Source of the DNA: a virus
Length of the DNA stretch: 41,370 nucleotides
Direction: 5' to 3' (one strand)
Virus record (IMG/VR): IMGVR_UViG_3300010399_000019
Location: 1-41,370 of that record
Below, in pieces: positions 1-41,370 of this stretch. How positions within the stretch are numbered: position 1 is the stretch's first letter; each line of letters begins with the position of its first letter. The translations under genes were made by a program, and so were the position numbers. A model generated the notes under the pieces. It ran no database searches. It saw only the letters and a list, made by a program, of their open reading frames with translations, and was not told where the DNA came from.

Positions 1-123
1 ACGAAATCGACGGGCTCCGAATTGAACGGACTGTGCTTATGAATCTCAGCCCGCAGCCTGTTAATTTCTTCGATCCTGTCAGACTCGGGCAAGTCGGAGA
101 GATAGTCAAAACTGATTCGGTAT
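1..123. repeat. Terminal direct repeat, left copy
   Basis: This stretch is identical to 41248-41370 at the other end of the window. The repeat shows that the sequence closes into a circle of about 41,247 bp. It could be an assembly overlap from a circular or permuted genome, or a true short terminal repeat of a linear virion genome. Coding sequence runs straight through it (the ParB-fold gene), which favours an assembly overlap over a dedicated packaging end. Confidence 0.95.
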
Positions 124-134
124 TTGGTTTTCAC
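1..134 (-). CDS. N-terminal part of the ParB-fold protein that continues at 41247-40707
   Basis: This is the first 45 or so codons of the ParB-fold gene described at the right end. The likely start is GTG at 134-132, beginning MKTKYRISFDYLSDLPES. It overlaps the TGA stop of the upstream 77-residue gene in a GTGA arrangement, and a strong GGAGG ribosome site lies five to ten bases upstream. An ATG inside the repeat (92) would give a product 14 residues shorter, but it lacks that ribosome site. Joined across the circle, the full protein is 224 residues. Confidence 0.85.
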   Translation of the reverse strand, partial: MKTKYRISFDYLSDLPESDRIEEINRLRAEIHKHSPFNSEPVDF

Positions 135-364
135 TTTCCCCTCCGAATCAGCCCCGCCTCTAATCGGTTAACGTGTCCCTCGATAATCGGGATTTGCTCT
201 CTGACCCGGCGCACGATATCAAACGGAATAGAAAAGTCTCTCGCGCACTCACGCTCCGCGTTCTGAACCTCGGAAAGAATAAGACGCGCCTTTGCTAACC
301 GTTCGTCCGACTTCTTTAATTCTTTCAACTCCGAAATATCTCTCTCAATCTTTCCTATGTCCAT
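131..364 (-). CDS. Small charged helical protein, first gene of minus-strand arm B
   Basis: The 77-residue product is rich in Lys, Glu and Arg and is predicted to be mostly helical, with a heptad-like N-terminal half (DIGKIERDISELKELKK). The ATG follows AAGGGGGATTA, a good ribosome site. Its stop overlaps the GTG of the ParB-fold gene, so the two are probably translated together. It is the first gene after the 676-790 promoter/terminator element, about 300 bases downstream of it. No family is recognised; coiled-coil accessory proteins of this size are common in phage early regions. Confidence 0.7.
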   Translation of the reverse strand: MDIGKIERDISELKELKKSDERLAKARLILSEVQNAERECARDFSIPFDIVRRVREQIPIIEGHVNRLEAGLIRRGK

Positions 365-675
365 TAATCCCCCTTACAATACCGACCAACTTCCCCCGGG
401 GTTGTATCCCCGTTGTGCGTTACTTCCGTCCGCTCCCCGCTCTCTGCCCCGGTCCTCTTTCCAGCCTACCTAGCTTCACTGGTGAGCCTTGTTTCAGAAA
501 GTCTAGTCTCTTTTCAGAGCCCCGTTGGTACCCGTTGACCGTCGGCGTCAGAGCGGGATTTGACGGGAGCTTTAACCGATTGATTGACGCTTCGGTCCCC
601 GTCGCGTAACTATTTGATTTGACGCTGCCCCGATCATTATTGATTCGTGAGCTTTCGGCCCGATAGACGCGCGGG
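365..675. other. Non-coding leader region between the terminator and the first arm-B gene
   Basis: No convincing gene is seen here. A long open frame on the minus strand (420-761) runs through the terminator hairpin and its U-tract and has an unnatural composition, so it is not called. The minus strand is purine-rich around 420-470. A short perfect hairpin (five pairs, six-base loop) lies at about 398-413, just ahead of the ribosome site of the 131-364 gene. The region may be an untranslated leader. Confidence 0.5.
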
Positions 676-726
676 CAAAAAAGAAGCCCCTCGGCAGAGA
701 ACCCGCTAAGGAACTTGCCGAGGGGC
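676..726 (-). terminator. Intrinsic terminator, minus strand
   Basis: On the minus strand an 11-bp perfect GC-rich stem (726-716 paired with 696-686) closes a 19-base loop and is followed by TTCTTTTTTG. It ends arm A (genes 3359 to 849) and also lies just downstream of the promoter at 762-790. Transcription from either source must pass it to reach the ParB-fold operon. Confidence 0.9.
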
Positions 727-752
727 AGATTGATTTTACGATTAGCGGGTTC
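686..752 (-). promoter_or_regulatory. Candidate antiterminator/attenuator overlapping the terminator
   Basis: The terminator loop contains 11 bases (709-699) perfectly complementary to 752-742, which lie at the very 5' end of the RNA expected from the 762-790 promoter. That helix and the terminator stem interleave in the order A-B-A'-B'. The link between A' and B' is only two bases, too short to span an 11-bp helix easily, so the two structures probably exclude each other. This is the layout of a transcription attenuator or switch. The trigger is unknown. A terminated RNA of about 80 nt acting as a small RNA is the alternative. Confidence 0.55.
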
Positions 753-761
753 ATGGCTCAT

Positions 762-790
762 AATCTATCACACTCGAAATAATTTAGCAA
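762..790 (-). promoter_or_regulatory. Sigma-70-like promoter, minus strand
   Basis: Reading the minus strand, TTGCTA (790-785) and TAGATT (767-762) are separated by 17 bases. The predicted start, near 755, puts the antiterminator arm within the first few bases of the RNA and the terminator about 30 bases later. Confidence 0.55.
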
Positions 791-848
791 CAACTTTGTC
801 ACCGACTCACCGATACCAAACAACGTCAAGCGGACAAAAAAGAGAGGA

Positions 849-1217
849 CTAGGACTGTTTCTCGACGTAGGAAATGGCTTCAGTCAGGATGATGAATGCG
901 CTATCTCCGACGCATTCCGATTGAAGAATCTCTCGCGCCTTTTCCACCGCCATTAAAAGTTTCCGCTCACGTTTCTCTGCGGCATCGGCCCTGTCTTGCT
1001 GACTTTTTCCCGCGTCATACATTAAGTCCCTAGACTCGCACAGACTCCGAAGCTCTTTTGAATCATTCCCGATAATCCGTTTTAGGTCTTCGTTATCCCT
1101 GCGGACCTTCGCCAGTTCATCGCTCAGTCTCTTGACCAGTTCGCAAGCCTTATCCCAATCCCATTCGGCTTGAAGCTCGGCGCTGGTCATGGATATGCGG
1201 TAGTCTGATTCGGTCAC
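849..1217 (-). CDS. Coiled-coil protein
   Basis: The 122-residue product is strongly heptad-like from about residue 25 to 105, rich in Glu, Lys, Arg and Leu, with no enzyme motif. The GTG start at 1217 overlaps the TGA of the upstream gene (GTGA), indicating coupled translation. It is the last gene of arm A before the terminator. Similar Ala/Glu-rich coiled-coil proteins occur at 35010-36454 in this genome, which may reflect a shared origin or only shared composition. Confidence 0.75.
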   Translation of the reverse strand: MTESDYRISMTSAELQAEWDWDKACELVKRLSDELAKVRRDNEDLKRIIGNDSKELRSLCESRDLMYDAGKSQQDRADAAEKRERKLLMAVEKAREILQSECVGDSAFIILTEAISYVEKQS

Positions 1218-1480
1218 GGTTTCCCCCTGTTGTCGATTATCGTTTGTGCGGCCTCAACGTCGCATTGAAGGCAGGCGGCTTTCTCTCCATAGCCGTCCGA
1301 AAACGATCCGTTGTCGCACGAACATTGATCGCGCAGAACATCGGCCAAACACTCGGCGCAAGTGGCCATTACCCGCGCACTTTCAAACGTCGTCCAGGCT
1401 AACGGCGCGTCCTTTGGATCGAAACAGCACAGAGGGAGATTGTTTATAGCGGACGATTTGACATGGATTAAGTCGCTCAC
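1214..1480 (-). CDS. Small cysteine-rich protein
   Basis: The 88-residue product has Cys clusters (LCC, TCAEC, QCSC, CLQC), suggesting one or two bound zinc ions. The start chosen is GTG at 1480, which follows GAGGGGGATTCC and overlaps the TGA of the 27-residue gene upstream. A farther ATG at 1534 would extend it through that micro-gene and has no ribosome site. The function is unknown; cysteine-knuckle proteins are frequent in phage early regions. Confidence 0.65.
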   Translation of the reverse strand: MSDLIHVKSSAINNLPLCCFDPKDAPLAWTTFESARVMATCAECLADVLRDQCSCDNGSFSDGYGEKAACLQCDVEAAQTIIDNRGKP

Positions 1481-1560
1481 GGAATCCCCCTCATCGCTAT
1501 AACTAGAAGTCCCAACGAAACCGCCATCCCGCACAAATCCAAGAACTCTCCGAAGTCCAT
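1477..1560 (-). CDS. 27-residue membrane micro-protein
   Basis: A short gene begins at ATG 1560 after AGGGGGACGAGAA. Its product has an acidic N-terminus (MDFGEFLDL) followed by a single hydrophobic helix and MRGIP. The TGA overlaps the GTG of the next gene. The strong ribosome site and the GTGA linkage argue that it is translated. Its role is unknown; it may also serve to deliver ribosomes to the following gene. Confidence 0.5.
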   Translation of the reverse strand: MDFGEFLDLCGMAVSLGLLVIAMRGIP

Positions 1561-1575
1561 TTCTCGTCCCCCTGG

Positions 1576-2199
1576 TTAGTGATGGTTAGCGGCCTTCGGC
1601 ACCGGATTACTAACGTCGTAACGGCTAGATTCTCCCTTCGGGTACGGTAAAACAGGATAGGCAAGATCACGCCTTAACTTACGTCGGTTAGGCCCGATGA
1701 ACGTAACATAGCGATGCTTGGCCGATCTATTCTTACGCCTGGACCTAGCTTCATCCGTCATTGAGTAGTGCCGCGAGTGCTTCCCTTCTCCGGGGTCTAC
1801 ATCGGTTCTAGGCTTGGAACATCCCGTATATATGAAATTTGTGGCCTGATATATGTAGCCTCTATGGCCCCAAGCCTCGTCACTATACGAAACTATGACT
1901 TTATCCCCCTGCTTTGATAAAAGTCTAAGGCAACCGGAAAGAAACTCAGACGCGGTATTCTTCGGAAGACCTTCGCGCAAAACAAGGCGGTTAAGCTCCC
2001 AAACTTTTTCCGAGTGTTTTCCGCCGCAGACCCCGCGACAAATCCAAGGCGAAGCGGGCTTACCGATAGTCAACGCTCCGCAATCCTCCCCGCCTATCAA
2101 AAGCTGGAAGCCAAAAGAAACGGAAGGAAGTCGGCGGGCATAGTGAACGTTCATAAGCCAATGCTCTATGGCTTTGCGGCGGCACTCGACGATTTCCAC
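1576..2199 (-). CDS. mom: Mom-like adenine modification enzyme (GNAT fold)
   Basis: The 207-residue product resembles the Mom family of phage Mu (Mom itself is about 230 residues). Mom converts adenine in phage DNA to N6-methylcarbamoyl-adenine and protects it from restriction. Recognisable family features are the N-terminal HWLMNVHYARRLPSVSF segment, GKPASPWICRGVCG, the ELNRLVL strand with LPKNTASEFLS, VSYSDEAWGHRGYIYQATN and a C-terminal HSRHYSM. The C-terminus is basic and probably binds DNA. The GTG start (2199) follows GAGGGAAAGAAGTA and touches the upstream TAG. The gene lies mid-operon in arm A. Assignment is by remembered motifs, not a search. Confidence 0.8.
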   Translation of the reverse strand: MEIVECRRKAIEHWLMNVHYARRLPSVSFGFQLLIGGEDCGALTIGKPASPWICRGVCGGKHSEKVWELNRLVLREGLPKNTASEFLSGCLRLLSKQGDKVIVSYSDEAWGHRGYIYQATNFIYTGCSKPRTDVDPGEGKHSRHYSMTDEARSRRKNRSAKHRYVTFIGPNRRKLRRDLAYPVLPYPKGESSRYDVSNPVPKAANHH

Positions 2200-2519
2200 T
2201 ACTTCTTTCCCTCGGCCTTGGCGATGGCGGCGCGGATGCGGAGATGCGCCTTACTCCCGGCCCGAAGATGGAATCCGTCAAACTTCATCCGTTCGGCTTC
2301 GTCGAGGCCGTTAAGAATGTCGCGCAGTTCGGCCAGCAGTTCCGGCGCGGCGGCGATGAGGCGGGCGTCGTCCTCCCCCACGTTTTCGGCGACAAACCAA
2401 ACCGCGCCGTCCTCAACAGGTCCGACGCCGCAGAGGTTTCGTGTTCCTGTCGGCGAGACGGCTTGCTTGCGATATTCCCACGGCCCCGGCGTGTGCGTCG
2501 TCTTGTTCTCGGTTTTCAT
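2199..2519 (-). CDS. Phage protein with TPGPW...AAPELLAEL motif
   Basis: The 106-residue product begins MKTENKTTHTPGPWEY and has the ARLIAAAPELLAELRDIL helix. This combination is widespread in phage small proteins of unknown function, often expressed early. ATG 2519 follows GGGGGAACTACAA. A related AAP(D/R)LL helix is found in the 2538-2825 and 37895-38566 proteins, so this genome has three members of the same loose family. The C-terminus is basic (AIAKAEGKK). Confidence 0.75.
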   Translation of the reverse strand: MKTENKTTHTPGPWEYRKQAVSPTGTRNLCGVGPVEDGAVWFVAENVGEDDARLIAAAPELLAELRDILNGLDEAERMKFDGFHLRAGSKAHLRIRAAIAKAEGKK

Positions 2520-2537
2520 TTGTAGTTCCCCCTTTGA

Positions 2538-2825
2538 TTAGATGTTGTTAGCGGACGCCTTTGAAATCGCGGCGCGAAGAATTGAAACCGGGGGCTCTCC
2601 ATAAGGCGGGAATGCAACCCGACCCTCGATTGCCTTAAGAGCAGAGCGGCAAGCATCAAGAAGGTCAGGCGCGGCAGTATGCAAGGGACACTGGATCATA
2701 TGCAACGAGTTCCATCGGCAACCGCAATCGGCTAGATAAAATCCTTTTGAATCGGGACCGACGAAAGTCCCCTTGGCCGGGAGTGCTTTAGGAAGTCTTA
2801 TTTCGTGCTTCTTACTGGTCGCCAT
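2538..2825 (-). CDS. Small phage protein with CxC and AAPDLL helix
   Basis: The 95-residue product has a basic N-terminus and an ADCGCRWNSLHMIQCPLH segment with Cys and His spaced as in a metal site. It ends in a helix starting TAAPDLLDACRSALKAIEG, resembling that of the neighbouring 2199-2519 protein. ATG 2825 follows GGGGGTCGTTAAT. The function is unknown. Confidence 0.7.
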   Translation of the reverse strand: MATSKKHEIRLPKALPAKGTFVGPDSKGFYLADCGCRWNSLHMIQCPLHTAAPDLLDACRSALKAIEGRVAFPPYGEPPVSILRAAISKASANNI

Positions 2826-2826
2826 A

Positions 2827-2961
2827 TTAACGACCCCCTAGAGCGATTTGGGTCTCTTTCGAGGAACGGCAATCAACGCAAGAGCCATCATGACGAAGCG
2901 GGCAAGTGCTTCCGCAGGCCGGGCACATCTCTTTTTTATCCCCTTCCGCTTTGGTTTCCAT
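2827..2961 (-). CDS. 44-residue zinc-ribbon-like protein
   Basis: The short product has CPAC (residues 13-16), a third Cys at 20, and CVDC (28-31), a plausible zinc knuckle. The start chosen is ATG 2961, after AGGGGAATGAAA; an in-frame ATG lies two codons upstream at 2967. The TAA almost abuts the ATG of the 2825 gene. The function is unknown. Confidence 0.55.
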   Translation of the reverse strand: METKAEGDKKEMCPACGSTCPLRHDGSCVDCRSSKETQIALGGR

Positions 2962-2991
2962 TTTCATTCCCCTTGGTTCCTGTCTTAACTA

Positions 2992-3087
2992 CTAGTCCCA
3001 GCGGTCCAGATAAAGAGCATACGCGAAGGCGGCGATAAAACAAACTAGCGGAATGAGGCAGATAAAGACGCCCGTTGAGTGTTTCAC
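2992..3087 (-). CDS. 31-residue single-helix membrane micro-protein
   Basis: A GTG start at 3087 overlaps the TGA of the upstream gene (GTGA). After MKHSTG comes one hydrophobic helix (VFICLIPLVCFIAAFAYALY) and the tail LDRWD. The linkage and clean membrane helix suggest a real product. The function is unknown. Confidence 0.45.
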   Translation of the reverse strand: MKHSTGVFICLIPLVCFIAAFAYALYLDRWD

Positions 3088-4091: not shown

Positions 4092-4419
4092 TCCCAGGAT
4101 ACACTAGCGCAATGGGACCGCGAGACTTCATCGAGACAGGACATTAATGAGCCGGAGGGCCCGCACGATCCCAACTTGATTTTGTCCGAAACCTGGACGC
4201 ATCCGCGCTAGATAAAATCGCAATGACCTGTTAGACTGTAACCGTTCAGGCTTATGGGGCGCATGAAATATAGATGCGCCAAACTTTATCCTTCCGGCCG
4301 TCCGCGCCTAATCCCCTTGGTGCTGGACGGCCTTTTTATTTCGCCCCTGGCCTGAACAATCAGGGACAACGTGCCGCCCCGCTAGAGAAATCTGGCGTGG
4401 GCAATTTTTTGGGCGACGA
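4092..4419 (+). other. Intergenic region with hairpins and terminator
   Basis: No gene is supported in this 328-base stretch. It holds a 7-bp hairpin at 4258-4280 (GGCGCAT/ATGCGCC), the terminator at 4296-4341 and a weak 5-bp hairpin near 4350. No strong promoter is apparent between the terminator and the HNH gene, so the virion genes may depend on read-through, antitermination or a phage-specific promoter. Confidence 0.6.
4296..4341 (+). terminator. Intrinsic terminator, plus strand
   Basis: An 8-bp stem (GGCCGTCC at 4296-4303 with GGACGGCC at 4325-4332) is followed by TTTTTATTT. It separates the lipoprotein unit from the HNH/terminase operon. Confidence 0.85.
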
Positions 4420-4977
4420 ATGAAAGAACACGAAATGATCGCCTCAATCCGTTTGAGAAAGTGGTCATGCGTTGTTTATAGCGCAATTTGTGATGAATGC
4501 GGGGATGTAGGATTTAGCCGAAATAAATCTCAAAGGAATGGCGATAGGTATTACTGTTCGCGTGAATGCACCTTTAAAAATAGCGCAAAAGGACCCGCAT
4601 CGTTTCATTGGAAGGGTGGTAGGCGCGAGCAACTAGGCTATATCAGCGTTTATGCTCCTGGTCATCCGAGCGCAAATAAAACTCTATGTGTTCGTGAGCA
4701 TCGTCTTGTTATGGAGCGCCATCTTGGGCGTTATTTGAAGCCATCTGAGAATGTGCATCACAAGAATGGAAATCGTTCAGACAATAGAATCGAGAACCTT
4801 GAGCTTTGGGCAAAGCCGCAGGCCCCCGGGCAGCGGGTTTCAGACCTGGTGGATTGGGTAATAGATAACTATCAGGATGAAATTGAGGCTAAATTAACTG
4901 TCCGAAAACTGGTCCAGTCGATCATTGATAGGGTTAGCACTATTAAGAATGGCGGGACTGAGATCAATGCCATTTGA
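4420..4977 (+). CDS. HNH endonuclease next to the terminase genes
   Basis: The 185-residue product has an N-terminal Cys-rich knuckle (CDECGDVGFSRNKS and YCSRECT, residues 24-51) and a classic HNH core. EHRLVMERHLGR is followed by VHHKNGNRSDNRIENLELW at about residues 112-130, containing the catalytic His-His and the Asn of the motif. The base composition is more AT-rich than the following genes, typical of mobile HNH nucleases. Phages with HK97-type packaging machinery often carry an HNH protein beside the terminase, where it can be required for DNA cleavage during packaging. A selfish homing role is the alternative. The end overlaps the TerS start. Confidence 0.85.
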   Translation: MKEHEMIASIRLRKWSCVVYSAICDECGDVGFSRNKSQRNGDRYYCSRECTFKNSAKGPASFHWKGGRREQLGYISVYAPGHPSANKTLCVREHRLVMERHLGRYLKPSENVHHKNGNRSDNRIENLELWAKPQAPGQRVSDLVDWVIDNYQDEIEAKLTVRKLVQSIIDRVSTIKNGGTEINAI

Positions 4978-5317
4978 AAAAGGAAAAAGCGGTAATCCAG
5001 GAGGACGCCCCCCCAAATCGCAGGCCCAGGTTATTTTCGAGGAGAAATGCCGAAATTGGGCTGCTCTTTTCGCTTTCGATAAACTCAAGAAATGCGCGGA
5101 TAGTCCCGATCCAAAAGCGAGTCATGCCGCGACCAAAGAGATTCTTGATAGGGCCTTTGGAAAATCGGTTGAGACTAGCGTAATCGACGCGAATGTTACC
5201 CCCATCGCTGGAAGCACAATTGGCGAGCTTGAGGCAGGAATTGCCTCGCTTATCGGAGCAGCAAAGGCAGGAAGCGGGACAGTGGCTAGCAAAACTGAAG
5301 TGGACTCAGGAAAATGA
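4967..5317 (+). CDS. Putative small terminase subunit (DUF5681-like N-terminus)
   Basis: From ATG 4967 the 116-residue product begins MPFEKGKSGNPGGRPPKS, the basic Gly/Pro-rich signature of DUF5681 proteins that regularly precede large terminases. A helical segment follows with ASHAATKEILDRAFGK. Upstream in-frame starts (4949, 4925) would add up to 14 residues not typical of the family. The gene overlaps the HNH gene by 11 bases and TerL by about 125 bases. It would recognise phage DNA and regulate TerL. Assignment rests on the motif and gene order. Confidence 0.65.
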   Translation: MPFEKGKSGNPGGRPPKSQAQVIFEEKCRNWAALFAFDKLKKCADSPDPKASHAATKEILDRAFGKSVETSVIDANVTPIAGSTIGELEAGIASLIGAAKAGSGTVASKTEVDSGK

Positions 5318-6701
5318 AGCGATACGCCTATTCCAGCCTACAGGTGGACAAGAAGCCTTCATCCGAGACATTGAAGGCGGCTTCATTTGCATTTCCGGCG
5401 CTGGCAATGGCTGGGGCAAGTCAGAGATGCTAGCCGCGATCTTCGCCGCCGCTTTCTGGCCCGCGATGGCTCCGGCGGCGCTTGCTATTCCGTCATTCCA
5501 AGACTGGAAGTATCCGAAGCGAGCCCGCATTTATTCAGGTCCTGCGGAGCTAGAGGAAATTGGATCACTCCAAACCGCAATCAAAAGACTTTTCCCCAGG
5601 GGTCATTACGAAGCAGTTAAGGGGCGATACTCTTATCCGTCTGTATTCCACACTGACACCGGATGGATTCTTGACCTTTTCAGCTACGAACGGGACGCGG
5701 CGGAGGCGGCTGGCCCGAATATCGGTCTCCAGGGGCTTAATGAACCACCGCCTGAACCTCTCTACAAAGAAGCCGTAGCCCGTTCCCGATCAGGCGGTTA
5801 TATCATCGGCGGCTTCACTTCCCTGCTCGATAATGTGTGGGTTGTCGATGGCCTTCTAAACAAGGCCGATGGAAAAAATATTCGCGTTCGTTATGGTTCT
5901 AGCTGCGAGAACTGCAAGACCCACGGCGTTAACGGGAACCTCGAACATGAGCAGATCGAAAAGGTGCTGTCACAGTATGACCCGGACGAGCGTGAGGCCA
6001 GGTTTACCGGCCGCCCCCTCTCCATGTCCGGGCGCATCTTCAAGGCGTTCGATCCTGCTGTTCACGTCGCGGCTGATGAATTCCTGCCTCCAACGGATGA
6101 GCCTGTCTCTATTGGTATGGCGGTTGACCCGGCCATAGGCAAGCCTCTCGCGATCCTTTGGTACTACGTTGACAGGGCTGGAATCGTCCACATCTATGAC
6201 GAGCATCCCGAGATTCAGTTCGAGGGGGCCAAAGACTCCAATTTGACGGTCAAGGAATACGCAGATTTGATCCGTACCCGAGAAAATGGGCGGCAAATCG
6301 AGACGCGCATCCTCGACCGCCACTTCGGCAATGTCCGCAGGACGATGGGCGGACTGACGTTGCGTGACGAGTTCAATGAGGTCGGGATTGAATTCCAAGA
6401 CTCCTACTCGCTTGGCGGCGAGGAAGTTGAGACAGGGATTCAGAAGGTTAAGGAATACCTTCGGTGGGATGCGTCGAAGCCTATGGACGCTCTCAATCGT
6501 CCCCGCCTCAGGATTTCGCCTAAGTGCAAGAATCTAATCGCGGCCATGAAGATGTGGGGGCGCGATCCAAAGACGGGTAAGCCTAAAGAGGAGTTCAAGG
6601 ACTTCGCTGACGTTCTGCGCTATATCCTGATGACCAATCCAGAGATTGATGTTGCCCGCGCCTGGACAGGGACAAAGCCTTACTATGGGGTGAATAGCTA
6701 A
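5193..6701 (+). CDS. terL: Large terminase subunit (packaging ATPase and nuclease)
   Basis: The 502-residue length is normal for TerL. An N-terminal helical lead (about residues 1-45) precedes the ATPase. The Walker A motif is GAGNGWGKS (residues 69-77), and an IGLQGLNEPPP strand at about 175 supplies the Walker B-like acidic position. The RNase H-type nuclease begins near residue 308 (GMAVDPA), with further acidic residues in RILDRHF (about 375) and FADVLRYI (about 470). The first 40 codons overlap the TerS reading frame. Downstream TTG codons near 5239 could also serve as start, but the N-terminal helix looks genuine. It powers DNA translocation into the prohead through the portal. Confidence 0.92.
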   Translation: MLPPSLEAQLASLRQELPRLSEQQRQEAGQWLAKLKWTQENEAIRLFQPTGGQEAFIRDIEGGFICISGAGNGWGKSEMLAAIFAAAFWPAMAPAALAIPSFQDWKYPKRARIYSGPAELEEIGSLQTAIKRLFPRGHYEAVKGRYSYPSVFHTDTGWILDLFSYERDAAEAAGPNIGLQGLNEPPPEPLYKEAVARSRSGGYIIGGFTSLLDNVWVVDGLLNKADGKNIRVRYGSSCENCKTHGVNGNLEHEQIEKVLSQYDPDEREARFTGRPLSMSGRIFKAFDPAVHVAADEFLPPTDEPVSIGMAVDPAIGKPLAILWYYVDRAGIVHIYDEHPEIQFEGAKDSNLTVKEYADLIRTRENGRQIETRILDRHFGNVRRTMGGLTLRDEFNEVGIEFQDSYSLGGEEVETGIQKVKEYLRWDASKPMDALNRPRLRISPKCKNLIAAMKMWGRDPKTGKPKEEFKDFADVLRYILMTNPEIDVARAWTGTKPYYGVNS

Positions 6702-6826: not shown

Positions 6827-6987
6827 GCAAGATAGCCAACACTTGCGCTAACCCCTCTTGCTTCCGCTATCCGATGCGTTCCAGCAATCTTTGTATGTCC
6901 TGTTCGACTAAGCGGGATGCCCTGTTTCTCCTTGGTGTTATGGCTGGCGGACTATCTATCTTCGCGGCGGTTTTGAGGTTTTGCTAA
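6823..6987 (+). CDS. 54-residue zinc-knuckle plus membrane-helix protein
   Basis: From ATG 6823 the product has CANPSC and CMSC, a Cys4 pattern at residues 8-27, followed by a hydrophobic helix (ALFLLGVMAGGLSIFAAVL). The start overlaps the preceding stop (ATGA) and the TAA shares its last base with the portal ATG. The function is unknown; a membrane-tethered zinc knuckle between TerL and portal is unusual. Confidence 0.55.
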   Translation: MSKIANTCANPSCFRYPMRSSNLCMSCSTKRDALFLLGVMAGGLSIFAAVLRFC

Positions 6988-9068
6988 TGGCTCAGATTCA
7001 GTCCGACACCTTGCCCGAAGCGGCAGTTAAGTACCTCAACGACATTGAGGCGGTTAAAAACCGCGAGGCCCAGCAGTTGGGCCGCATTGGAGCCCGCCAG
7101 GAGCTTCTTAACTGGTGCTGGCAATGGTATACGACGGCTAGGACTTGGCGCAAACAGTCCTGGGAAGATGAATGGTTGATGTGGCAGCGCAATGCGGATG
7201 GGAGATACGATCCTCGCCTTGCGTCTAAAAAGAAGGATTGGCAGGCTAAAGCCTTTGTCGATCTGACCCCCTCTCATCGTGAGACTATCCATGCCGAACT
7301 GTTTAGGCTTGTAGCGGGGTCTCAGCCGCTTTGTGAGGTGTCTAACCGTCCCGGTGGCGATGAGCCGACGGCCCAGGACATTGAGGACTTGCTTAAGCGG
7401 GAGTTTGAAAAGTCCAGGTTTGAGATTCACTATAACTCGATCCTAGAGGACCGGAATACTTACGGCTCCGGCTTCTGCCAGATTTGGTTTGACGTTGAGT
7501 ATGCCGATAGACCGACTAAGGTTCCCGTCTATGAGCCGCTGACTACTATCGGCGGCATGATGCGCAGTTTGCAGGGGCAGAGACAGATTTCAGGCTATAA
7601 GACCGTTTTGCAGAAGGTTGTATCTTACCGGGGAGTGAAGATTAGGCATATCCCTATTTGGGACTTCTTTGTCGATCCTAAGTCATTGACGATGAAGGAT
7701 GGACGGCCCCGGCTTCTTCGCACTCGCGTCTCGCTTCAGCAGATTCTTGACAATATCAAGTCCGGTGAGTGGATGCCGGAAGCGGGTCAGTTATTGTCTC
7801 AGGCGCGAGCCGAAGAAGTGACCCCTTCCGACCGTCAGCTATTGCAGATGGAGCGCGGCATTGCCGATGTTGCTCCGAGGCGGGAGGGTAATCAGAAGGA
7901 CTTTGAAGCCTATGAGCTTCATGCCAAACTGCCGCAGAAGTGGGTCTATCCGCTACTGAAGAATCCTCTGCCGATTGACAATGCGGAGCAGTTGGTCCCC
8001 GCCTGCGTCTATTTCACGGAAAAGACTATTTTTGCGGTCACGTTTGAAGATACCTATGACGGTGAGCCAAATTTCTATAAAGACGATTACTTCCCGGTAG
8101 CCAATCGGTTCTATGGGCGTGGAATCCCTGAGATGATTCGCAATCCTCAGATGATCGTTAATGAGGTTGTCAATCAGCGGTTGGACGAGGGTAATTTGGC
8201 GCTTCAGCAGGGCTTCGCGGTCATTGAGAAAGCCATTGTAAATACGGAGGACCTTGTGTCCGGCGGCCCAGGACTCATCGTCCGCCTTGACCAAAAGAAA
8301 CTTGGTCCCAATGGCGATGTCAGGAATGCGATTCTCCCGCTGGAGCGCCCCGATGTGAAGATTAATGCTGGGTTCTCTGAGGTGCATGAATGGGAGCGTA
8401 TGGCCCAGGAGCGCACCTCTGTTAATCGCGCCGAGCATGGTCCTGTGGGCATTCCTGGCGGGGCTAAGACGCTTGGCGGTATGCAAATGCTTAAGCGGAC
8501 GGAATCGGCCAAGTTTGCGTTCATTGCAATGCTCTCTGAGTTCCGCTTCATGCACGATATCTTCCGTGGGTATTGGCAGTTGATTTACGCCAATATCACG
8601 CCTCAGGACGTTATTGATGCCCTAGGCCAGCAGCGGGCGCAGAGATTCCAGCTTATGAGCCCGGAGCAGATTGAAACTCAGTACCGATTCCAGCCCAAGG
8701 GAATCTTTGAGCGCGAGGGCAAGGCCGAGAAACAGGGCAGGCTTGCGGCGCTCCGCGAACAGTTCAAGGGCGCTCCGTGGTGGAATGACCTTGCCAACGC
8801 CGAGGAGCAGGCTAAGAGCTTCGGGGTTGACCCTTCCACGTTTGAGTTCCCGCAGGCAGAACAAATCCAGATGCAGCAAATGGCGCAGATGATCGCCCAG
8901 CCCATGGCTAAACAGATGCTTGCTGAGATTGTGATTGGTCAGGCCGTCAAGGATGTTGAGCGCAATCTAAGCGAGAAGATGGCCGACAATGCGGACGGGG
9001 CCAAAGAGGAAAAGGTTAAGGGAGTTCCCGACCTTGCCAGCAAAGAGAAGCCGAAGGGGAAAGTCTAA
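6987..9068 (+). CDS. Portal protein
   Basis: The start is ATG 6987, in a TAATG overlap, giving 693 residues, the size range of short-tailed phage portals. After an N-terminal helix (EAAVKYLNDIEAVKNREA), Trp-rich segments (NWCWQWYTTARTWRKQSW) lead to the wing and stem regions. NPQMIVNEVVNQRLDEGN (about 390-410) is typical of the clip/stem part of portals, and the C-terminus is Gln/Ala/Lys-rich (barrel-like). Its place between TerL and the scaffold/capsid genes supports the call. It forms the dodecameric DNA channel of the capsid vertex and docks TerL and the tail adaptor. Confidence 0.88.
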   Translation: MAQIQSDTLPEAAVKYLNDIEAVKNREAQQLGRIGARQELLNWCWQWYTTARTWRKQSWEDEWLMWQRNADGRYDPRLASKKKDWQAKAFVDLTPSHRETIHAELFRLVAGSQPLCEVSNRPGGDEPTAQDIEDLLKREFEKSRFEIHYNSILEDRNTYGSGFCQIWFDVEYADRPTKVPVYEPLTTIGGMMRSLQGQRQISGYKTVLQKVVSYRGVKIRHIPIWDFFVDPKSLTMKDGRPRLLRTRVSLQQILDNIKSGEWMPEAGQLLSQARAEEVTPSDRQLLQMERGIADVAPRREGNQKDFEAYELHAKLPQKWVYPLLKNPLPIDNAEQLVPACVYFTEKTIFAVTFEDTYDGEPNFYKDDYFPVANRFYGRGIPEMIRNPQMIVNEVVNQRLDEGNLALQQGFAVIEKAIVNTEDLVSGGPGLIVRLDQKKLGPNGDVRNAILPLERPDVKINAGFSEVHEWERMAQERTSVNRAEHGPVGIPGGAKTLGGMQMLKRTESAKFAFIAMLSEFRFMHDIFRGYWQLIYANITPQDVIDALGQQRAQRFQLMSPEQIETQYRFQPKGIFEREGKAEKQGRLAALREQFKGAPWWNDLANAEEQAKSFGVDPSTFEFPQAEQIQMQQMAQMIAQPMAKQMLAEIVIGQAVKDVERNLSEKMADNADGAKEEKVKGVPDLASKEKPKGKV

Positions 9069-26935: not shown

Positions 26936-27751
26936 TTGAGCGCGAATCAAACGAAGGCTATTAAGCCGGAAACCGCGACGGCAAGGACGCTTATTTTCGA
27001 TATTGAGACCTCTCCGAATATCGCTTACGTTTGGGGTAAGTACGAACAGGACGCATTGGGAGACCTCATCAAGGAACGGCAGATTATCTCTATAGCCTGG
27101 AAGTGGTTGGGTGAGAAAACCGTCCATTGCCTATCCCTTCCAATGCTTCCCACCTACAAGAAAAATCCCGAAGATAATCGCGGACTAATATTAAAACTTC
27201 ACGAACTTTTTAGCCAAGCGGATATTGTAGTAGGACATAACGTCGATTCGTTCGATTGCCCAATGAGCAATTCTGAGTTCTTAATCCATGGACTAAAGCC
27301 GCCGCCGCCGCATCGCTCCGTCGATACTCTGAAGTTTGCCCGCCATAAATTCCGCTTCAATTCCAATAAGTTGGGCGATCTTGGCAAGCGGTTAGGGATA
27401 GGGGCTAAGGTTCATACTGGCGGATTTGATTTATGGGCTGGCTGCTTGCGAGGGGATGAGAAAGCATGGGCGAGAATGGCAATTTACAATATGGGCGATG
27501 TTGCCCTGCTCGAAAAGATATATATGAAGATGCGGCCATGGATGATTAGCCATCCAGCCATCACGACTCGCGGAGAGGTTGAATGCCCGCAATGCCAGAG
27601 CAAGAACATTCAAAGCCGTGGGACCAGGATACGGAGGGCTGGACGAGTGCCGACCTATCAATGCCAGGACTGCGGGACATGGTCAATGGGGATGCTAGTT
27701 AAGGATAAGAACGCCATCAATCCCAAGGCCAAGAAATGGATAGTCAAGTAG
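26936..27751 (+). CDS. RNase H-like 3'-5' exonuclease with C-terminal zinc ribbon
   Basis: TTG 26936 follows AAAGGAGACTCA. The 271-residue product has a DEDD-type core: FDIETSPN (motif I, about residues 22-29), ADIVVGHNVDSFDCPMSN (motif II), RSVDTLKFARHKFRF with NKLGDLGKRLG, and NMGDVALLEKIY (motif III with the last Asp). A Cys4 ribbon (CPQC and CQDC, about 220-250) ends the chain. It probably trims or degrades DNA during recombination or nucleotide recycling. It is expressed from the plus-strand arm, not with the ERF protein. Confidence 0.82.
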   Translation: MSANQTKAIKPETATARTLIFDIETSPNIAYVWGKYEQDALGDLIKERQIISIAWKWLGEKTVHCLSLPMLPTYKKNPEDNRGLILKLHELFSQADIVVGHNVDSFDCPMSNSEFLIHGLKPPPPHRSVDTLKFARHKFRFNSNKLGDLGKRLGIGAKVHTGGFDLWAGCLRGDEKAWARMAIYNMGDVALLEKIYMKMRPWMISHPAITTRGEVECPQCQSKNIQSRGTRIRRAGRVPTYQCQDCGTWSMGMLVKDKNAINPKAKKWIVK

Positions 27752-36824: not shown

Positions 36825-37126
36825 GGCTCCCCCATAGCAGAGAGGGCGGCGAGTGCGGCCTTTAACTTGCAGACGCGGCAAGGATTCCCCCTCGTTCCGT
36901 AGGCGCAGATGCAGTTTCCGCCCTCGAACAGACGCGCCGCCTCCACCACTTCGCGCATCCTCTTCACCTCAGCGAGCAAGCCCGCCACTTCGCAGTGGCA
37001 CCATGACCGACTCATGGTTTCGTGGCAGACCAATCCCGCATGACCCGGCTTCGGGATCAAGCACGGAATCTCCGCGCTCAGGTGCTTCTCGATACGCTCC
37101 GAAATCTCCTGGTGCCTGTCTTTCAC
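36821..37126 (-). CDS. Cys-rich helical protein
   Basis: GTG 37126 (GTGA) gives 101 residues: a helical start (DRHQEISERIEKHLS), scattered Cys (IPCLIP, LVCHE, SWCHCEVAG) and GNCICAYGTRGNPCRVCKLK, with at least four clustered metal ligands. The function is unknown. Confidence 0.62.
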   Translation of the reverse strand: MKDRHQEISERIEKHLSAEIPCLIPKPGHAGLVCHETMSRSWCHCEVAGLLAEVKRMREVVEAARLFEGGNCICAYGTRGNPCRVCKLKAALAALSAMGEP

Positions 37127-40291: not shown

Positions 40292-40711
40292 TTAGTAAAG
40301 GTTCACCTTGGTCTTAACCCCGGCCCCGTCAAGCTCTACGGGTTCATCCCCTCTTTCCGCAAGCCACTTGTTGAGGTATTCAAGGGCAAGCGCGTCCGCG
40401 TCTTTCTGCTGCTGATCGGTCAACAGGAAGTAACCGGATCGGTACTTAGACGGCAAGCCTAGAGCGATACAGGCCGACGCCTGTCCTAACCACGCTATCC
40501 GGTTCATGCTCTCATTGGTTAGGTAATGCTCGGTTGAATTGGGCCACTCAGCCAGGACCCGCCTCAATGCCTTGTCAAAGGCGTCCAGATCCGACAGAAA
40601 GGCTCGGTACATTTCCCGGCACTCGTCATCCGTCTTTCCCGTTACTTGACCTTCATAGAATCCAGCCGGATAGCACTCCCACTTATCCCAGGTGTGATAG
40701 ACGCGGCTAAC
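40292..40711 (-). CDS. Conserved middle gene of the ParB-fold/PAPS reductase trio
   Basis: ATG 40711 overlaps the stop of the ParB-fold gene, giving 139 residues. AGFYEGQVTGKTDDECREMY, then AFLSDLDAFDKALRRVLAEW and LTNESMNRIAWLGQASACIA and ALEYLNKWL form a helical protein of a type I have seen beside ParB/PAPS reductase pairs. No catalytic motif is evident. It probably acts with its neighbours. A longer start at 40750 lies inside the ParB-fold gene. Confidence 0.7.
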   Translation of the reverse strand, partial: VSRVYHTWDKWECYPAGFYEGQVTGKTDDECREMYRAFLSDLDAFDKALRRVLAEWPNSTEHYLTNESMNRIAWLGQASACIALGLPSKYRSGYFLLTDQQQKDADALALEYLNKWLAERGDEPVELDGAGVKTKVNLY

Positions 40712-41370
40712 CATTGATCGCCTCCGCATCCTCAAACGTGATATCTTCAATGGCTTCCTCGAACCCGATATCCCAGGACTTAGAGAAATCGGAATCCGCG
40801 AACGCTTCTGCCATTCCGGTAATCTGACAGAGCCTTAAAACCTCGTCGGGGTCCATGCCGAGATTCTTAGATATCTTCGCGTCGGACCAATTGCGCCGTT
40901 TCAGTTCGACGACGATATCAGCCATGGCCTCGACCTTGTGTTTACCCCTAGCGCGGTTGTGACGGATGGTAGACGCGATTCGGTCCCCCTTGTCCGTCCG
41001 GTCCTCATTGATCGTTACGACAGGGAGATACCCCTTAATGCGGGACTGAACGTCGGGGCATTCCTTGCCGACGCGATGACGATGGAAGCCGTCAACAACC
41101 TCACGGACTGAGCCGCCGTTAAACGTAACGATAGGCTGAGTGTAACCGTCCTGAGAGATTGACTCGCGCAGCAGTTCCATTTCTGGCGGGGCTACCTGGT
41201 TGGGGTTATAGTCATTACTTGTGACCGTATCGGCCTTGACCCAACGTACGAAATCGACGGGCTCCGAATTGAACGGACTGTGCTTATGAATCTCAGCCCG
41301 CAGCCTGTTAATTTCTTCGATCCTGTCAGACTCGGGCAAGTCGGAGAGATAGTCAAAACTGATTCGGTAT
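40707..41370 (-). CDS. ParB-fold protein (IbrB-like), continuing across the junction into 134-1
   Basis: The gene runs off the window end and its first codons are at 134-1. The full protein is 224 residues. The ParB/sulfiredoxin-type core includes NPNQVAPPEMELLRESI, GYTQPIVTF, VVDGFHRHRVG (the conserved GxHR motif) and IRHNRARGKHKVEAMA. An HTH-like part follows (WSDAKISKNLGMDPDEVLRL) and an acidic end. Such proteins pair with PAPS reductase-like PP-loop proteins (IbrA/IbrB). It may bind DNA and nucleotide; partition is unlikely without a ParA, and none is seen. Confidence 0.82.
   Translation of the reverse strand, partial: YRISFDYLSDLPESDRIEEINRLRAEIHKHSPFNSEPVDFVRWVKADTVTSNDYNPNQVAPPEMELLRESISQDGYTQPIVTFNGGSVREVVDGFHRHRVGKECPDVQSRIKGYLPVVTINEDRTDKGDRIASTIRHNRARGKHKVEAMADIVVELKRRNWSDAKISKNLGMDPDEVLRLCQITGMAEAFADSDFSKSWDIGFEEAIEDITFEDAEAING
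41248..41370. repeat. Terminal direct repeat, right copy
   Basis: This stretch is identical to 1-123. See the left copy. Confidence 0.95.

Follow-up and report, generated by a model that had tools for sequence, protein, structure and literature searches.

The question raised by this locus is what two interleaved inverted repeats are doing in the 484 bp that separate two leftward gene groups of a viral genome. The window, that is, the whole stretch of DNA analysed (41,370 bases), carries a 123-base direct terminal repeat (1-123 is identical to 41248-41370) and therefore represents a circular assembly of ~41,247 bp. The element lies on its minus strand; the gene on the upstream side ends at 849, and the one on the downstream side, encoding 77 aa, starts at 364 (Table 1). 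No convincing family match was found for the 122-aa protein encoded upstream, and none for the 77-aa protein downstream. Beyond the 77-aa gene, across the circle junction, come genes that we name IbrB-like and IbrA-like, after the ParB/PAPS-reductase gene pair of that name. The first-pass annotation had placed the element ahead of a ParB-fold operon, which is borne out: the ParB-like gene is followed by a small gene and then by the PAPS-reductase gene.

Table 1 Features of the element, its gene neighbourhood and the VapE-gene leaders (window positions, except for the leaders, which are given per locus).
Feature	Position	Strand	Sequence	Remark
Mom-like DNA modification gene	2199->1576	minus		member of the group immediately upstream
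Last gene of upstream group	849..1217	minus		122 aa; stop codon ~97 nt before S1a
Weak promoter candidate	762..790	minus	TTGCTA(790)-17-TAGATT	predicted start ~755
S1a, antiterminator helix 5' arm	752-742	minus	GAACCCGCTAA	exact 11-nt complement of 709-699
S2a, terminator stem 5' arm	726-716	minus	GCCCCTCGGCA	from folding and terminator scan
Terminator loop	715-697	minus	AGTTCCTTAGCGGGTTCTC	19 nt
S1b, loop segment pairing with S1a	709-699	minus	TTAGCGGGTTC	
Link from S1b to S2b	698-697	minus		two bases
S2b, terminator stem 3' arm	696-686	minus	TGCCGAGGGGC	
U-tract	685-677	minus	TTCTTTTTT	
First gene downstream of element	131..364	minus		77 aa
ParB-like (IbrB-like) gene	41339->40707	minus		
Small gene between ibrB-like and ibrA-like	40292-40750	minus		
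PAPS-reductase/DUF3440 (IbrA-like) gene	40290->39061	minus		
Erf-like recombinase	33853->33152	minus		
DNA polymerase exonuclease subunit	26936-27751			
HNH endonuclease	4420-4977			
Terminase	5193-6701			
Portal	6981-9068			
VapE leader structures	L172:2860-2990, L173:2842-2982, L174:2864-2990, L176:2762-2885, L177:2862-2985			

The architecture described in the first pass, an 11-bp terminator stem with a U-tract whose loop contains 11 nucleotides perfectly complementary to a segment upstream, is exact on the minus strand. The stem (S2) has 9 G-C pairs and is followed by UUCUUUUUU, giving a predicted intrinsic (Rho-independent) terminator. Each 11-mer arm of S2 and of the interleaved helix S1 occurs once in the whole window, and S2a can also fold on itself as a 4-bp mini-hairpin (UGCC-CCUC-GGCA). 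There is no doubt that the complementary arms exist; that they are active is what we infer in the following.

The S1 pairing is far beyond chance. It forms, with S2, the only interleaved inverted-repeat pair in the genome with both arms longer than 8 bp, and interleaved arms reached at most 9 bp in 60 size-matched order-1 Markov genomes. When terminator loops were paired with the upstream stretches of other terminators (mismatched-loop null), complements of at least 11 nt arose in 1 of 11,890 loop/upstream pairs, a null that is if anything conservative because some of the loci had been fetched by an S1-related sequence pattern. Elsewhere in the window, the perfect-stem terminators that were scanned have loop/upstream complements of 4-6 nt. 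A perfect-stem terminator at 4296-4332 (plus strand; 8-bp GGCCGTCC/GGACGGCC with TTTTT) lies just before the HNH endonuclease gene, and no long upstream complement was found for its loop.

RNA folding recovers both of the states anticipated in the first pass: S1 when the RNA ends at 699 (-19.8 kcal/mol, z -5.1) and S2 for the full 80-nt RNA (-29.8 kcal/mol, z -4.7), with none of 200 shuffles folding as well in either case. S1 can close once nucleotide 699 is out and is the minimum-energy fold until about nucleotide 688 (for an RNA ending at 690, -21.0 kcal/mol for S1 versus -15.6 kcal/mol for S2), after which S2 wins by ~4 kcal/mol (-29.8 versus -25.7). As in an attenuator, the alternative helix S1 can form first and blocks nested formation of S2. 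Refolding of bare S1 (-15.9) into S2 has to surmount ~21 kcal/mol (saddle near +5.1), a value that applies to a nested-only path and assumes no pseudoknotted shortcut, since the folding programs used cannot model pseudoknots. If there is no such shortcut, S1 forming first should act as a kinetic trap that prevents termination on the time scale of transcription.

Mutual exclusion of the two helices, as first proposed, stands for their full-length forms. With full S1 the linker L3 is only 2 nt long, and because only two bases join S1b to S2b, coexistence of full S1 with S2 is unlikely on geometric grounds. Exclusion does not extend to a partial S1, as 6-8 bp of it leave an L3 of 5-7 nt and an L2 of 6 nt and, judged from these linker lengths, could coexist with S2 as a pseudoknot.

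We give about an even chance to the proposal that the element is a transcription attenuator between the two leftward gene groups, in which occupancy of S1a, perhaps by the terminated RNA, leads to termination. S1a would emerge from RNA polymerase first, followed by S2a and then S1b, and the 11-bp S1 would close before S2b has fully emerged. S1 would then hold S2a in its loop and block the terminator, so that transcription would by default continue through the 77-aa gene to the ibrB/ibrA-like operon. Were S1a occupied, S2 would form and transcription would end at ~677. The likeliest occupier would be the terminated ~75-80-nt RNA itself, which in its S2 fold would display S1b in the loop and leave S1a as a free tail, giving a self-limiting loop like that of the CI RNA of satellite phage P4 on seqA. 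We infer that the region is transcribed and that read-through is its default, and we hypothesize that control is exerted in trans. The small regulatory RNA and the attenuator, which the first-pass annotation offered as alternatives, may thus be the same thing, the terminated product itself being ~75-80 nt long. Of what that annotation proposed, the design with two helices is real, and the best-supported reading is the attenuator, based on the sequence, the order of folding and the occurrence of the same topology elsewhere (the P4 leader and covarying VapE leaders, below). A promoter about 30 bases upstream, with a start near 755, was not confirmed: the best minus-strand candidate matches 8 of 12 consensus bases, under the scanner cut-off of 9/12, and several equally good matches lie nearby.

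One rival is an ordinary terminator at the end of the upstream operon, with the S1 complement as a coincidence or neutral leftover. The hairpin indeed comes after the last upstream gene, whose stop codon is at 849, with no strong promoter found in between, and a lone 11-bp inverted repeat with a spacer of up to 80 nt is not very rare. However, an 11-nt complement between loop and upstream sequence is met in ~1/12,000 random pairings, and a plain terminator would cut off the downstream genes, because these have the same orientation and the stretch from 676 to 365 showed no good promoter; we consider this explanation unlikely. Protein binding to a DNA-level site (an operator or origin-like nested palindromes, the terminator look being incidental) would suit the nesting of the inverted repeats and the lack of convincing genes in the 484-bp gap, but the arms are unique in the genome, the U-tract is present on one strand only and spacers of 32 and 19 bp are atypical of dimer operators, which makes such a site highly improbable.

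The remaining rivals place the function in RNA. Ribosomes initiating at an AUG at 761 or 754 could cover S1a and favour the terminator, as in leader-peptide attenuation. Two AUGs do lie on or just before S1a, and a 113-aa frame (761-420) passes through the element, but neither AUG has a clear ribosome-binding site, no stop codon is found near the element (the frames are 60 and 113 aa long) and the longer frame is without protein-family support, so that we hold ribosome-controlled attenuation to be very unlikely. The codon score of that frame, -0.017 per codon (null 95%, 0.014; true 5%, -0.004), is graded ambiguous, and with no family match a coding explanation for 420-761 was rejected. Alternatively, the product could be a stable phage small RNA of ~75-80 nt that acts on other RNAs and not on its own read-through, with S2 as the terminator hairpin and 6-8 bp of S1 folding back on the loop for stability or seed masking. 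RydC, a solved pseudoknotted small RNA that needs its fold for stability, provides a precedent (PMC4337610). It, too, is short, has a terminator at its end and contains a stem that crosses the loop of that terminator. In the S2 fold, the RNA of the element exposes its 5' tail and loop, and the linkers of 5-7 nt (L3) and 6 nt (L2) left by 6-8 bp of S1 were judged sterically plausible. Yet the two short helices of Hfq-bound RydC coexist, whereas the full helices of the element are expected to exclude each other and its S1 is longer; a perfect 11-bp S1 with only 2 nt to S2b exceeds what a pseudoknot could use. Targets in trans were also sought within the phage, and the best complements to loop or tail are 8-10 nt, about chance level. 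A RydC-like small RNA seems decidedly unlikely.

Logic like that of the element controls replication and immunity in P4. A hairpin in the P4 leader (8431-8396) has an 18-nt loop to which TTCTCAC (8448-8442) is complementary. These presumably correspond to seqA and the CI loop as published, given that the CI RNA is described as pairing with seqA and seqC and so causing transcription to end prematurely (PMC4825925). What the element shares with P4 is a seqA-like segment, in a phage leader, that is complementary to the loop of the hairpin following it. It differs in that its hairpin is the U-tract terminator itself, in that the genes downstream are not P4-like replication genes and in that a search downstream gave no second target resembling seqC, the best S1b complement there being 6 nt (CCCGCT at 556). 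The Rfam C4 model (RF01695) matches P4 at 74.9 bits, as a control, and gives no match in the window; by the tests run, the element is not a member of the C4 family. Terminator and antiterminator are mutually exclusive also in classical attenuators and riboswitch expression platforms (trp, T-box), but there the two helices share an arm, whereas those of the element share none and should exclude each other topologically.

The same topology was found in the leaders of VapE-like genes. A search of viral contigs with the pattern CCCGCTAA-N-TTAGCGGG gave 81 matches, none of which was counted as a homologue and several of which are ordinary terminators; one match, in L152, led to this family. Its terminator, in the leader of a VapE-like gene, is the sole other one with an 11-nt loop/upstream complement in the terminator scan of the fetched loci, and its relatives (~50-55% protein identity) have the same arrangement wherever the leader is present. 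Five leaders were compared (L172, L173, L174, L176 and L177, of which L172 is the same contig as L152, L176 as L170 and L177 as L171; isolates carry L170 and L171 as prophages). Each has a 5' hairpin holding S1a, followed by an intrinsic terminator, just before the phage gene, whose loop holds the exact complement S1b; the S1 arms are GGCCTGAGAAT, GGTTCGGA, GACCTGAAA, GGTTCGCAA and GACTGGA. Compensatory changes, altering both sides with the pair kept, occur at 6 of 9 compared S1 positions. Because the arms were chosen by complementarity, the fair control is across loci: each upstream segment matches its own loop over 7-11 nt versus 3-6 nt for foreign loops.

The VapE leaders and the element thus have in common an S1a upstream and an S1b in a terminator loop before a phage gene. 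The leaders have features of their own, namely a conserved TATAAATA-like box and the extra 5' hairpin around S1a; as the latter is absent from the element, they are its analogues, not its relatives. They are not related to the window in their proteins or sequences. VapE relatives were absent from the genome collection and gave only weak partial matches in the phage and plasmid collections, and Rfam returned no match of meaningful score for the leaders of L152, L173, L174, L176 and L177. Given the same topology in the P4 leader and the compensatory changes in five VapE-like leaders, the element is likely to be a functional switch.

No relative carrying the element was found by DNA and protein searches of phages, plasmids, viral contigs and genomes with the element and its neighbours. 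Portal relatives are 49-62% identical and lie on short contigs; the only one with early-region sequence (L082) has an early region that differs from that of the window. The phage is isolated in the collections searched. Rfam gave no relevant match, including none to C4, on 1-3000 or on the whole window. A sub-threshold match to the ROSE_3 thermoregulator at 37010-37063 (minus strand; 25.6 bits against a gathering threshold of 43, E 0.28) is probably due to chance.

The element is most likely an attenuator with P4-like logic; neither it nor the VapE leaders are recognised by Rfam as C4. Sequence-based Rfam models would miss such switches because the pairing is kept and the sequence is not. If functional, this one would be very compact (~80 nt), with no shared arm and topological exclusion, and its product could control how much of itself is made. 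That this logic occurs in unrelated phages, and that one family shows compensatory evolution, points to an RNA control principle that recurs. A more far-reaching and doubtful idea is that self-limiting attenuators have arisen repeatedly in unrelated phages, with a terminator loop antisense to the 5' end of its own RNA letting the terminated RNA enforce termination in trans, the window, the VapE leaders and P4 being separate instances; this would amount to an immunity-like RNA circuit without a repressor protein.

Finally, the operon downstream of the element belongs to a common arrangement. The ibrB-like, small and ibrA-like genes form a three-gene cassette, shared by 80 loci of IbrB relatives; in a scan of 1.42 Mb of fetched loci, no similar element was found in them. 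The small gene, for which no confident Pfam or PHROG match was obtained, is kept in the majority of these 80 viral loci. A 9-bp hairpin (CTGATTCGG/CCGAATCAG, followed by TTTT) at 112-151 on the minus strand encloses a ribosome-binding site (AGGGGA) and a GTG codon. This codon is likely the true start of the ibrB-like gene, and translational control of that gene by the hairpin is possible.
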